This document shows, piece after piece, positions 20,478 to 23,453 of a stretch of 64,000 nucleotides of DNA. A program made the translations under genes and the position numbers. The stretch's first letter is position 1. Each line of letters opens with the position of its first letter. The notes under the pieces are model-generated. The model was not told the origin of the DNA. It saw only the letters and a program-made list of their open reading frames with translations, and searched no databases. Source of the DNA: Cytophagaceae bacterium (GTDB lineage Bacteria > Bacteroidota > Bacteroidia > Cytophagales > Flexibacteraceae); the NCBI GenBank assembly GCA_947458545.1, contig CANGYH010000004.1:1-64000 (forward strand), in the 5' to 3' direction.

Positions 20478-20511
20478 GCTAAGAGAGGAGATTGTGCCGC
20501 TACGCCCCCTG

Positions 20512-20901
20512 ATGACGCCTACCCCAGAACCCGCCAAAGCCGATTCTACCATAGCCGCCCAGCACGGAAAGCAAGGCGAAGATATGGCCTGCCGCCTGCT
20601 TACCGCACTCGGCTACAAGCTGCTGGCACGCAACGTGCGCCACGGCCGCGCAGAGATGGACGTGCTGGCCACCGAGGGCGGGGCCCTTGTCTGCATTGAG
20701 ATTAAGACCCGCACCAACACCGCCTTCGGCCGGCCCGAGGAGTTTATCACCAAGCGCAAGCAAGTGCTGCTTAACCAGGCCCTGCAGGCCGAGGTGGAGG
20801 CCCGCCAATGGCAAGGCCCGGCCCGGTTCGACGAGGTGGCCCTGGTGCTGCTGCCAGACGGCTACCAGGCGCAGGTATTCCGGGATGTGTGGTACGGCTA
20901 G
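20512..20901 (+). CDS. yraN: YraN/UPF0102 endonuclease-like protein
   Basis: The product of about 129 residues has the UPF0102 pattern: HGKQGEDMACRLLTALGYKLLARNVRHGRAEMDVLA, then CIEIKTR, that is the E-D-ExK nuclease-like core. The family is Holliday-junction-resolvase-like, but its biochemical role is not established. I chose ATG 20512 (MTPTPEPAK); an in-frame GTG at 20494 sits 3 nt after a purine-rich run and remains possible. The stop codon overlaps the convergent ARMT1-type gene: both genes end in the same CTAG at 20898-20901. Confidence 0.88.
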   Translation: MTPTPEPAKADSTIAAQHGKQGEDMACRLLTALGYKLLARNVRHGRAEMDVLATEGGALVCIEIKTRTNTAFGRPEEFITKRKQVLLNQALQAEVEARQWQGPARFDEVALVLLPDGYQAQVFRDVWYG

Positions 20902-22220
20902 GCAGGCTGCCAGAAGTCGAGCAGGCCCCAATGGCCGTTGACGCGCCAGGCGGGGTCTAGCCCATCCAACCGGGATGGCAGATGCGCAGGCAACCCTGCC
21001 ACCATCTCGCTTTTGAGCATGCGGATCATGAGCGCAGGCACGGGCAGGTAGCCAAGCAGATCAGCCAGGGGCGTGGTGGGGTCGTAGGCGCGGTCGTCGA
21101 GCAGGCGGCGGTAGTTGGCGTCTCCCTTTACGACCCAGAGGTTGGAGGTGAAGAGGTCGTTGGACTGGCTTCCTTTTTGTGCATGGGGGGAGGCCCCCTC
21201 ATCACCCTGCGGCCTTCCGTGCGTGGGGAGCACCCCCTCACCCCCCAACCCCCTCTCCCCCTCCAGGGGAGAGGGGGAGCTAGTTTGGATGCTTAGATGG
21301 TGATTTCTCGTCAGATCTCGGGGCAGGTCTGCAAAGGGCCAGGGGCCGTTCCAGAAGGGATGGTCTTGAATTTGAAGGCGGCCTTGGGTGATGGCCTGTT
21401 GCAGGGCGGCAGCCAGGGCTTGCAGGGGCGGTGCGCCGGCGGCAAAGGCAGCCAGGTGCTGCCGCACGTCTTGCGCGGTGGCGTCTGAGACGAAGGTGGG
21501 GTCGTGCTTGACGTGCAGCACCACCTGCCGCCCAGCGCCGCTGGCTAGCAGGTAGTAGATCAGCACCAGGTCTAGCCCTAGCTCTAGCCCGGCGTTGTCG
21601 GCCAGCCAGTCTAGGCGAGGTAGGGGGGTGCGCGGGGCCAGATAAGCCAGCAGATTGGGGGTGCGGTCTAGCAGCAGGTGCTCGTCGGCTACCTCTGTGC
21701 GGGCATGGGCGGCCAGCTGGCTGAGGTCTGCCGTGTTGCCATACAGGTTGGCCCGCAGCAGGCCGGGCAAGGCCTGGGCTAAGGGCACCTGCGCTGCCAG
21801 CAGGGCTCGCACCCGGCCCGCCGCCTCCGCCAAGATGGGCAGGCTGCCCTGCAAACTGGCCTGCTTGGCCGGAGCAAAAGGATCAAGGCTGCGGTCTGCC
21901 CCGTAGCCCAATACGATGCCTATCTGCGTATAGAACCAGGCCTCGACCTGCGAAAAGGGCACCTGGGTGGCCATTTGCCCGGCGTAGGTCTGGTTGAAAC
22001 GCTCCCAACCCGCCCCGGCTGCTACTTGAGTGGTATCTATGGGCGGAAGGGGCTGGTTCTGGTGGATGACACCCAGCAGCGCCTCTAAGGCCTGCACCTG
22101 CCCAGACTGCAAGGCCACAGCCGCCTGCACCTGCGCCACCACCTTCGGCAGCCGCTCCCGAAAGGTGAATGCCCCAAACGAGGCCGGGTCGGCAGCGGTG
22201 ATGTATGGCGCAATCAGCAT
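20898..22220 (-). CDS. ARMT1/DUF89-type damage-control phosphatase, with an in-frame repeat insertion
   Basis: The 440-residue protein matches the DUF89/ARMT1-like fold: WLADNAGLELGLDLVLIYYLL carries the metal-binding D and N, KHDPTFVSDATAQD the next acidic pair, and LWVVKGDANYRRLLDDR is the C-terminal signature. Family members are metal-dependent phosphatases acting on damaged or excess sugar phosphates; the substrate here is unknown. Between IQT (about residue 307) and NDLFTSN there is an extra stretch of about 40 residues starting SSPSPLEGERGLGGEG, encoded by palindromic repeat DNA; it is probably a loop insertion. GACCTTTG lies 8 nt before the ATG, followed upstream by a heptamer tract. 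Confidence 0.8.
   Translation of the reverse strand: MLIAPYITAADPASFGAFTFRERLPKVVAQVQAAVALQSGQVQALEALLGVIHQNQPLPPIDTTQVAAGAGWERFNQTYAGQMATQVPFSQVEAWFYTQIGIVLGYGADRSLDPFAPAKQASLQGSLPILAEAAGRVRALLAAQVPLAQALPGLLRANLYGNTADLSQLAAHARTEVADEHLLLDRTPNLLAYLAPRTPLPRLDWLADNAGLELGLDLVLIYYLLASGAGRQVVLHVKHDPTFVSDATAQDVRQHLAAFAAGAPPLQALAAALQQAITQGRLQIQDHPFWNGPWPFADLPRDLTRNHHLSIQTSSPSPLEGERGLGGEGVLPTHGRPQGDEGASPHAQKGSQSNDLFTSNLWVVKGDANYRRLLDDRAYDPTTPLADLLGYLPVPALMIRMLKSEMVAGLPAHLPSRLDGLDPAWRVNGHWGLLDFWQPA
21168..21290. repeat. Palindromic repeat inserted in frame in the ARMT1-type gene
   Basis: The core CCCCCTCTCCCC-CTCCA-GGGGAGAGGGGG (21249-21277) is a perfect 12-bp palindrome. Next to it, GGCCTTCCGTGCGTGGGG (21211-21228) resembles GGCCTTCCGTGGGTGGG at 22767 in the repeat-rich intergenic block. 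The whole stretch is translated without a stop and separates two conserved blocks of the protein. The exact edges are approximate. Confidence 0.7.
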
Positions 22221-22246
22221 AAGGGACGCAAAGGTCGGGGGGGGAG

Positions 22247-22277
22247 TTGAGAGTTAAGAGTTGAAAATTGAGAGTTG
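22247..22277. repeat. Heptamer tract TTGAGAG, inverted relative to the one at 13124
   Basis: Four units (TTGAGAG, TTAAGAG, TTGAAAA, TTGAGAG) plus TTG. On the minus strand this reads as CTCTCAA units, 27 nt upstream of the ARMT1-type start codon. Confidence 0.8.
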
Positions 22278-22306
22278 CCGCTGGTACCGGTCTCCGCAAG
22301 ATTCCT

Positions 22307-22329
22307 GGTACCGGTCAAAGACCGGTACC
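22307..22329. repeat. Palindrome GGTACCGGTC-AAA-GACCGGTACC
   Basis: Perfect 10-bp arms with a 3-nt loop. An incomplete copy of the left arm precedes it at 22283-22292 (GGTACCGGTC, then TCCGC). It has the same shape as 22781-22803 with one compensated base pair. Confidence 0.85.
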
Positions 22330-22346
22330 CACCTAGCCGTTACCCT

Positions 22347-22362
22347 GCGGTCTCCAGACCGC
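22347..22362. repeat. Palindrome GCGGTCT-CC-AGACCGC
   Basis: Perfect 7-bp arms with a 2-nt loop. The same element occurs in the opposite orientation (loop GG) at 22748-22763. Confidence 0.8.
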
Positions 22363-22528
22363 TGAAAGGGAGGGCTTGGGGGTGCGTTAGTTTGGGCCGC
22401 CCCAGGCAAAAGCCGTGGGGCTACTAGAATAGCGACGGCTGAAACCGCCCGCTGCTTATTTGCTGAATTTTAGGAGGTTGCAAGCGGTTTTTGTCGGCAA
22501 ATGTCGGTAGAATTGTCGTGTGTAGCTC

Positions 22529-22608
22529 TAGTCTGAAGACTGCTTTTCCATGGGCGTCACAAGTCATCGCTCCCCTAATCGGGTCGCTAAAGACTTGCGA
22601 CAGGTTGC
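22529..22608 (+). repeat. 80-bp dispersed repeat, copy A
   Basis: Begins TAGTCTGAAGACTG and ends GCTAAAGACTTGCGACAGGTTGC (first part at 22585). It contains two internal pairings: AGTCT/AGACT at the left end and GTCGC/GCGAC near the right. The reverse complement of 59143-59223 matches it over nearly the whole length, with one length difference and a variable block after the first palindrome. Confidence 0.85.
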
Positions 22609-22679
22609 ACCAAGGGACGCGGAAGGGACGTTCTTCGCCTTCGGCGGCGCCGTGCAACTGCTGAACATGGGGGACACAA

Positions 22680-22695
22680 GACGCAGCCTTGCGTC
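22680..22695. repeat. Palindrome GACGCA-GCCT-TGCGTC
   Basis: Perfect 6-bp arms with a 4-nt loop. It shares GCAGCCT with the hairpin at 22855-22871. Confidence 0.6.
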
Positions 22696-22747
22696 AGCGG
22701 TGGAGGTGCAGACCGTAGCCTGGACGTACCCGATGCCATCCGTTTGA

Positions 22748-22763
22748 GCGGTCTGGAGACCGC
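22748..22763. repeat. Palindrome GCGGTCT-GG-AGACCGC
   Basis: Same arms as 22347-22362 with the complementary loop, so it is the same element inverted. GGCCTTCCGTGGGTGGG follows directly. Confidence 0.8.
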
Positions 22764-22780
22764 GGGGCCTTCCGTGGGTG

Positions 22781-22815
22781 GGTCCCGGTCAGAGACCGGG
22801 ACCAGCATTTAGGGG
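22781..22815. repeat. Palindrome GGTCCCGGTC-AGA-GACCGGGACC with AGCATTTAGG tail
   Basis: Perfect 10-bp arms, 3-nt loop, then the tail AGCATTTAGGGG. The loop, right arm and tail recur at 152-174, and with changes at 176-198. Confidence 0.85.
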
Positions 22816-22854
22816 CTATTCGCAGGCTGCCAGGTCTGACGCCCTGGCCTACAT

Positions 22855-22871
22855 GCGAGGCGCAGCCTCGC
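22855..22871. repeat. Palindrome GCGAGGC-GCA-GCCTCGC
   Basis: Perfect 7-bp arms with a 3-nt loop; the inner AGGCGCAGCCT recurs at 57470-57480. Confidence 0.65.
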
Positions 22872-22919
22872 GAGAGCACGTGACAAGGGCACAGCCATTG
22901 CACAGAACTGGGGGGCTTT

Positions 22920-23453
22920 TTACGCCTCCATGGCCTCTGCTCCTTTGCGGGCTTTGGCCTTGGGGGCCGGGGCCGCACCGTTGGAGGCCGTGCGGTCTTC
23001 GGGTTGGAAGTCGCGCTGGCTGGGTTTCTTCTCGGTGGCCCGGCTAATCAGGTCCTTACCTTTCTCAAAGGCGCGGTCCAGGGCGGCGGGGGTGCGGCCG
23101 CTGTAGGCGTTGGGGTCAGAGAGCAGCACTACGCCCAGCTCTGCGGCGGCGGCGGCCAGAAAAGGCCAACGCGTCCGTCTGTTAAAGCCGAAAATCCAGG
23201 GGGCAGCACCCAACAGAAGTGCGCTGGCCACATCGCTGCGCAGGTGCGTGCGCATGGAGTACATCTTATTGACGCCCCACTCATAGTCCGTAAACAGGCT
23301 CTGGGGCACAATGGCCGCCCCCGCCACCGAGCTTACCCACAGCGGGGCGCCGCGGCGTTTGTCTCGGCTCAGCAGCCAGGGCAGGGCCAGCAGGGTACCG
23401 GCCATGGCATAGTCCATAAAGCCGTGTGTTTTAGAAGAGATTGGCTTGCGCAT
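22920..23453 (-). CDS. Conserved four-helix membrane protein of unknown function
   Basis: With ATG 23453 (MRKPISSKTHGFMDYAMAG) the product has 177 residues: hydrophobic segments at about 11-28, 38-56, 75-92 and 98-116, then a charged, disordered tail of about 50 residues rich in K, A and P. The SKTHGxxDY start is shared by small membrane proteins common in Bacteroidota; no function is known to me. The frame extends to 23519 but the added part lacks features. It is divergent from the GH1 gene with a 150-nt gap. Confidence 0.72.
   Translation of the reverse strand: MRKPISSKTHGFMDYAMAGTLLALPWLLSRDKRRGAPLWVSSVAGAAIVPQSLFTDYEWGVNKMYSMRTHLRSDVASALLLGAAPWIFGFNRRTRWPFLAAAAAELGVVLLSDPNAYSGRTPAALDRAFEKGKDLISRATEKKPSQRDFQPEDRTASNGAAPAPKAKARKGAEAMEA

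Follow-up and report, generated by a model that had tools for sequence, protein, structure and literature searches.

A palindromic repeat translated within an ARMT1-like gene and its link to DUF559 endonuclease genes in Cytophagales

Small palindromes of the REP type occur widely in bacterial genomes, and for many of them RAYT has been proposed as the enzyme. DUF559 is also a widespread domain, still named as one of unknown function.

Rickettsia palindromic elements (RPE) are hairpin repeats of about 105-146 bp that occur both in spacers and in frame in unrelated genes (PMC2229807). REPs are likewise known inside genes, where some encode 20-30 residues (PMC3733652), and inside the tnpAREP genes of subclass 2.4 (PMC6006769). 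Given these precedents, and as far as the available portions of both sources go, the translation of repeats within genes is not new in kind (PMC3733652, PMC6006769). Among MITEs, the ERIC, NEMIS/Correia and RU elements form translated fusions to genes (PMC2229807, PMC2759123). The ShiLan insertion in a phage methylase carries its nuclease out of frame (PMC11855218). For VsrA of Caulobacter, mismatch repair at methylated sites has been proposed, and the available portion of that paper mentions neither a palindrome nor a mobile role (PMC12907096).

The element described here is, like RPE, translated in several unrelated genes, three of them in the source genome. It is linked to DUF559, and no such linkage is mentioned for RPE in the accessible text (PMC2229807); RPE sequences themselves were not compared. 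The first-pass annotation of this DNA had proposed RPE-like behaviour, which holds in so far as three genes here and genes in related genomes carry the repeat, but the closest relatives found are DUF559-linked palindromes. With REP/RAYT systems the element shares small palindromes, inverted pairs and a nuclease gene enclosed between palindromes, but that gene is DUF559 rather than a Y1 HUH transposase, and there is no GTAG or CGTC tag. With MITEs it shares short derivatives with inverted ends, but no target-site duplication was found here. Its nuclease domain is that of the DUF559/Vsr-like endonucleases (VsrA of Caulobacter; PDB 3hrl). Our preferred reading, to which we assign a probability of roughly 0.7, is that the segment in the window (the whole 64,000-nucleotide stretch of DNA analysed) is a solo palindromic end of a DUF559 nuclease element that was inserted and is translated.

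The insert in the ARMT1-like gene and its repeat family

The host ORF encodes 440 amino acids and is open throughout, with no stop across the palindrome (Table 1). It matches PF01937 (ARMT1-like) at 5.4e-46, as well as solved damage-control phosphatase structures, and the DNAG and KGDANYR blocks of the PF01937 domain are intact. We infer that the gene is functional despite the insert, its activity not having been shown. The PF01937 profile is split by the insert, with profile positions 1-256 matching at 21309-22166 and 258-303 at 20988-21158. Forty-nine residues are extra in this protein and missing from all 17 homologues that BLASTP could align, which are 26-37% identical to it and in which the preceding block joins the following block directly. 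These homologues were drawn from a sample of the phylum because none was found in the 58 other genomes of the relatives search; 30 ARMT1-family loci were fetched, of which 13 did not align at 1e-5, and no homologue above 38% identity to the host protein was found. Since it is absent from those 58 genomes, the ARMT1-like gene may have been acquired horizontally.

Table 1. Positions of the host gene, the insert and its component features in the window
Feature	Positions	Strand	Basis
ARMT1-like (DUF89) damage-control phosphatase gene, host of the insert	20898..22220	-	ORF, PF01937, solved structures
In-frame insert of 49 residues (protein 304-352)	21165..21311	-	homologue alignment, Pfam profile split
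Part of the insert alignable with at least one other genomic copy	21174..21291	+	DNA comparison
Second, partial head module (TGTGCATGGGG...CCCCCTCATCACCC) preceding the main copy	21178..21207	+	by eye
Full match to the 66-position family model R1, 89.6 bits	21217..21282	+	covariance model
CCTCACCCCCC, outer end motif common to DUF559 elements of related genomes	21236..21246	+	sequence comparison
Perfect palindrome with 12-bp arms and 5-nt loop	21249..21277	.	hairpin search, fold

The first-pass annotation had described a perfect 12-bp palindrome within about 40 extra in-frame residues (21168-21290), inserted into a formerly shorter gene. The palindrome was borne out, with perfect arms at 21249-21260 and 21266-21277. 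The extra residues are real, but their extent has to be corrected to 49 residues at about 21165-21311, and insertion into a shorter gene is supported by the 17 homologues without them. On sequence comparison, with no DNA-level empty site compared, a palindromic repeat lying in the ARMT1-like gene as an insert relative to its homologues, and read in frame, can be regarded as demonstrated.

A search of the source genome with the segment at the DNA level, also proposed in the first pass, returned 41 other matches with the covariance model (R1; 42 matches in all, one partial). This model was built from 26 of 30 copies, with L023, L027, L029 and L030 left out of the alignment; the consensus of the 26 copies is TGTGCGnGGGnnGCACCCCCTCACCCCCCAGCCCCCTCTCCCCCTCCAGGGGAGAGGGGGAGC. 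The exact 12+5+12 hairpin is present in 17 copies in the 3.23-Mb genome, the window copy included, against none for a reversed control pattern, and a 161-bp query gave 78 genomic matches, many of them overlapping or weak. By eye, a few copies, L017 and L018 among them, have a change in one arm matched by a change in the other, but the palindrome fold has a covariation term of nil. A second, partial head module is also seen by eye in some longer copies, such as L004 and L025. Over 20501-23400, Rfam returned only three matches, all below threshold; two of these were to microRNA families and fall on the palindrome. In L006, L014, L015, L016, L022 and L026 the palindrome appears by eye to lie within a larger inverted repeat whose arms resemble AATGGTCATTTC...GAAATGACCAT.

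The insert had further been compared with the repeat-rich block at 22767, taken as evidence for a mobile repeat. The letters are indeed alike (24 nt, 83%), but kinship is ruled out, because the family model has no match there and the stretch matches RAYT-flanking repeats instead: 22750-22805 and 22304-22360 both match repeats that flank a Y1/RAYT gene (L059) of the same genome on either side. In addition, 22855-22905 matches repeats flanking a second Y1/RAYT gene (L064), and 22394-22457 matches repeats beside an IS200-like gene (L058) elsewhere in the genome. Judged by these matches to transposase-gene repeats, which are matches of sequence alone, the spacer block 22221-22930 is largely a mosaic of other, transposase-linked repeats.

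Copies lie deep inside a long ORF at 3 of the 30 loci examined in the source genome. The host genes encode the ARMT1-like protein, a glycosyltransferase-polysaccharide deacetylase and a THUMP-like methyltransferase, and the orientation and frame of the element are identical in all three. In the methyltransferase, about 30-36 extra residues are absent from all 29 homologue rows. In the glycosyltransferase-deacetylase, about 25 residues are absent from every one of the 16 rows, representing 9 gene copies, that span the insert site; 13 other rows of the alignment do not reach it, and the homologues without the residues include three gene copies from the same family of genomes. Among 20 exact-arm copies (L027, which overlaps L023, was excluded), four frames are open in 16-19 copies, the fifth in 13 and the sixth in 4.

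Spread across the order and translation of the repeat

The model built from source-genome copies matches 58 of 290 other sampled genomes of the same order, and none of the 10 other genomes of the same family. This order-wide search used stricter filters and scored at most 17 candidates per genome. The core common to copies across the order, CCTCACCCCCC-RG-CCCCCTCTCC-loop-GGAGAGGGGGAGCC, establishes that the same repeat has spread over part of the order.

At 109 loci from element-positive genomes (29 + 80 fetched regions, not every place matched), we counted 161 copies. Five of the six frames are open in 150-159 of these, and the sixth never is. Survival within genes would be favoured because five of the six frames of the element are normally free of stops. 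When at least 60 codons of open frame on each side were required, 33 copies gave 35 placements within ORFs, distributed over frames R1 (18), F1 (7), F2 (5), F0 (4) and R2 (1). The share of R1 compares with 0.197 expected from open-frame counts, and the binomial chance of at least 18 such placements is 2.8e-5, a value that overstates the frame bias because some ORFs are unverified and some copies orthologous. In frame R1, which is also that of the three source-genome insertions, the element reads S-P-S-P-x-x-E-R-G-x-G-G-E, a hydrophilic, linker-like peptide.

Pfam domains lie on both sides of the element or span it in 9 of the 30 embedding ORFs, on one side in 5, and are lacking in 16. The nine hosts with domains on both sides or spanning it are MnmE, MeaB-methylmalonyl-CoA mutase, methylmalonyl-CoA mutase, glutamine synthetase and an E1 dehydrogenase, along with a GH106 protein, an AAA protein, a PurL-like GATase_5 protein with DUF559, and a DUF559 protein with RecQ. 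A methionine synthase (L213) also embeds the element by eye.

Palindromes at DUF559 endonuclease genes

DUF559 genes (PF04480; PD-(D/E)XK, Vsr-like) are present at 11 of the 109 element loci, some of which are orthologous or represent an identical place. None was found at 89 control loci of similar total length, at 60 own-genome loci (two overlapping sets), or at 30 loci fetched for Y1 genes of element-positive genomes. A directed search, covering 50 of the 59 element-positive genomes and 30 others, found DUF559 in 45 of the 50 and in 13 of the 30 without a listed element match. Besides the source genome, 4 of the 49 other element-positive genomes searched also lack it. Genomes were called element-negative by the model searches only, and variant palindromes are present at DUF559 genes in some of them (e.g. 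L353).

Ninety DUF559 loci, mainly the strongest, were taken, and 87 were used, three having short flanks. Flanking inverted repeats (score at least 18) are found at 70 of the 87 genes, with a median score of 31.5; the other 17 have no clear repeat of this kind. The same score was reached in none of 174 control windows (median 9, maximum 14) and in none of 60 windows taken from genomes with the element (median 9.5, maximum 13.5). Most of the 89 control loci and 174 control windows were taken from genomes in which the element is not known to occur; the 60-window set covers element-positive genomes.

Two palindrome types dominate at DUF559 genes. Type A is that of the window, where the element core is the core of the type A palindromes flanking DUF559; type B (GCTCCCCTCCT..AGGAGGGGCTGGGGGTGGTT) has its foot facing the DUF559 gene and belongs to a DUF559 clade of its own (L344, L345, L374, L382, L384 and others). 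By strict patterns within 350 bp, 38 of the 87 genes have type A, 19 type B and 30 neither, and these palindromes are near none of 87 control genes and in none of 60 windows from element-positive genomes. On the DUF559 tree, palindrome type needs only 2 changes among 68 labelled genes, and 67 of the 68 share their type with their nearest neighbour (500 shuffles: mean 40, maximum 55). The tree rests on 110 columns, with many forks unresolved and with 19 of the 87 genes excluded for want of a clear type. Since both types coexist in 11 of 42 genomes, the match between type and clade is not a reflection of host phylogeny; the A/B split may stem from one ancient event. Candidate active-site residues, whose role is inferred, are D52 and E63 (alignment columns), kept in 87 of 87 DUF559 sequences; D65 and H69 are kept in 86 of 87.

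The arrangement of the copies is strongly directional. Core copies less than 200 bp apart are ordered F then R in 45 of 47 cases, never R then F, and point the same way in 2; among copies 200-700 bp apart there are 19 F-R, 2 R-F and 7 same-direction cases. These counts include loci chosen for DUF559, which enriches the long class. DUF559 lies within 14 of the 17 F-R pairs more than 250 bp apart and within none of the 47 closer ones. From this geometry and the DUF559-holding spacers it follows that CCTCACCCCC and GGGGGTGAGG are the outer ends. We find strong support for the repeat family being the inverted ends (CCTCACCCCC ... GGGGGTGAGG) of a small element, roughly 0.5-0.6 kb long, with a gene for a DUF559 endonuclease. 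As in MITEs, there are inverted ends and a short form without the gene of the longer one, the F-R pairs comprising 47 short and 17 long cases. What the longer form carries is DUF559 rather than one of the transposases usual for MITEs. Three F-R spacers of 313-315 bp in one genome (L251, L254 and L276, all G664) contain no DUF559 but, by eye, other inverted repeats.

We propose that the intact unit would be a DUF559 nuclease gene between cognate inverted palindromes, and that short inverted pairs and solo ends would be derivatives of it without the nuclease, in the way that REPs relate to RAYT transposases. The nuclease is inferred to recognise, cut or resolve its cognate palindromes and thereby to spread them, an action that has not been shown; the mobility of the palindrome/DUF559 element is likewise an inference. 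Insertions within genes would persist where the frame is open and the peptide harmless.

The main rival to this proposal is that the repeats are ordinary REPs mobilised by RAYT (Y1 HUH) transposases, with the DUF559 genes as passengers between two REPs. RAYT-linked REPs are known inside coding genes, according to the available portions of two sources (PMC3733652, PMC6006769). Eight Y1_Tnp matches are present in the source genome, and 35 of the 45 element-positive genomes searched have at least one; next to one Y1 gene outside the 30 tested (L285 of G459, C25:85428-85822), a type A element abuts or interrupts the gene end. Yet type A or B palindromes flank none of the 30 Y1/RAYT genes tested from element-positive genomes, and by eye, within 200-260 bp, element palindromes flank none of the 8 Y1 genes of the source genome. 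As 17 of the 30 Y1 genes have other inverted repeats of their own, the test could detect a RAYT link. Moreover, at E 1e-5 a Y1 match is missing from 10 of the 45 element-positive genomes, and no REP tag is present in the consensus of the 26 copies. RAYT as the cognate enzyme is thus not supported by the counts of 0/8 and 0/30, and we consider this explanation unlikely, if the strongest of the alternatives.

We give still less credit to the possibility that replication slippage or recombination spread the palindromes with no dedicated enzyme involved, and that the DUF559 gene merely prefers to land at hairpins. This would accord with the missing target-site duplication: across 64 F-R pairs, direct repeats stay at shuffle level for k 3-4 and reach 3/64 at k 5 against 0.6 expected (shuffle maximum 3). 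The flanks do show inverted complementarity above chance, at 27/64 against 8.2 for 3 bases. The many solo copies in a genome without DUF559, and the duplications of the head module within copies, point in the same direction as the missing duplication. Neither the outward geometry of the F-R pairs nor the tracking of DUF559 clade by palindrome type within shared genomes, however, would be expected from random insertion at hairpins. Finally, that the 49 residues are an ancient, family-specific phosphatase loop resembling a palindrome by low-complexity chance can practically be dismissed: the sequence is C/G-rich and of low complexity and the closest homologue found is no nearer than 38% identity, but the 17 exact hairpins against none of the control pattern, the resemblance at the DNA level, over about 50-110 bp, to other genomic copies and the absence of the residues from every alignable homologue all stand against it.

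Two features of the source genome weigh against the preferred reading of a solo end of a DUF559 element: it has no DUF559 match (99.73% complete) and only 2 F-R pairs among its 42 matches. Because DUF559 is missing, the copies here appear orphaned; the nuclease would have been lost from this genome, or never present in it, and such a loss has not been shown.

DUF559 units inside genes and on plasmids

By a 150-residue rule, the 87 DUF559 loci comprise 48 stand-alone genes, 22 units internal to a long ORF, 11 C-terminal and 6 N-terminal ones. The internal hosts are LeuRS in 7 cases (L310, L312, L313, L320, L321, L343, L353), MetH in 4 (L324, L342, L372, L393), UvrD-like proteins and restriction-modification proteins in 3 each, IleRS (L330, L349) and PD-(D/E)XK proteins in 2 each, and MutS in 1 (L356). 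The IleRS call is based on domain make-up and reading by eye, and in the PD-(D/E)XK proteins the host domain was matched on one side only. Many of the internal units in essential or repair genes sit between translated palindromes. The unit in L312 is read in the two frames that solo copies use most, F1 at its left end (LTPNPLSKGEG) and R1 at its right end (LLERGLGGEV); the left ends of other internal units are read in several frames, not only F1.

In having an endonuclease inside a host coding sequence with the frame kept, these units resemble homing endonuclease genes, inteins and ShiLan, and four families of the order (L310, L312, L313, L320) have theirs at one common site in LeuRS, where the editing domain begins. 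They differ from ShiLan in that the DUF559 unit is in frame as part of the host protein, occurs also in spacers and is accompanied by many solo palindromes. They differ from inteins in that Pfam scans of the 22 internal DUF559 ORFs (E 1e-5 or 1e-8) revealed no intein domain.

Beyond the order, 42 plasmid records have a DUF559 match, of which 12 were inspected. Six of these have flanking inverted repeats scoring at least 18 (three from Deinococcus, two from Pseudanabaena and one from Sphingomonas), and the other six have none at the same score. The inverted repeats at plasmid DUF559 genes differ in sequence from the palindromes of the order. In Pseudanabaena galeata, a DUF559 unit lies in frame in a protein of 1621 residues with an Eco57I-type methylase domain. 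Only 3 phage records match DUF559.

The link between DUF559 and palindromic repeats appears to be undescribed: among the matches listed for DUF559/COG2852 in the literature, in a search that left out preprints and most subscription papers, none connects the domain with palindromic repeats or in-frame insertions. The broader proposition is that an undescribed class of bacterial mobile elements has DUF559 proteins as its enzymes, which would act on their own cognate palindromes, and that these elements give rise to dozens of inverted pairs and solo palindromes lacking the nuclease, are translated through in essential genes without splicing and extend over more than one phylum; we regard the case for and against it as evenly poised. 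If it is true, a second, unrelated nuclease with cognate palindromes would explain repeat families without RAYT, DUF559 would gain a testable role, and mobile DNA would be shown to add translated segments, even whole nuclease domains, to essential proteins.

Among the plasmid cases, the DUF559 genes of L396, L401, L404 and L406 lie between genes of the hpa, paa and NAD(P) transhydrogenase clusters, a placement that insertion would lead one to expect.
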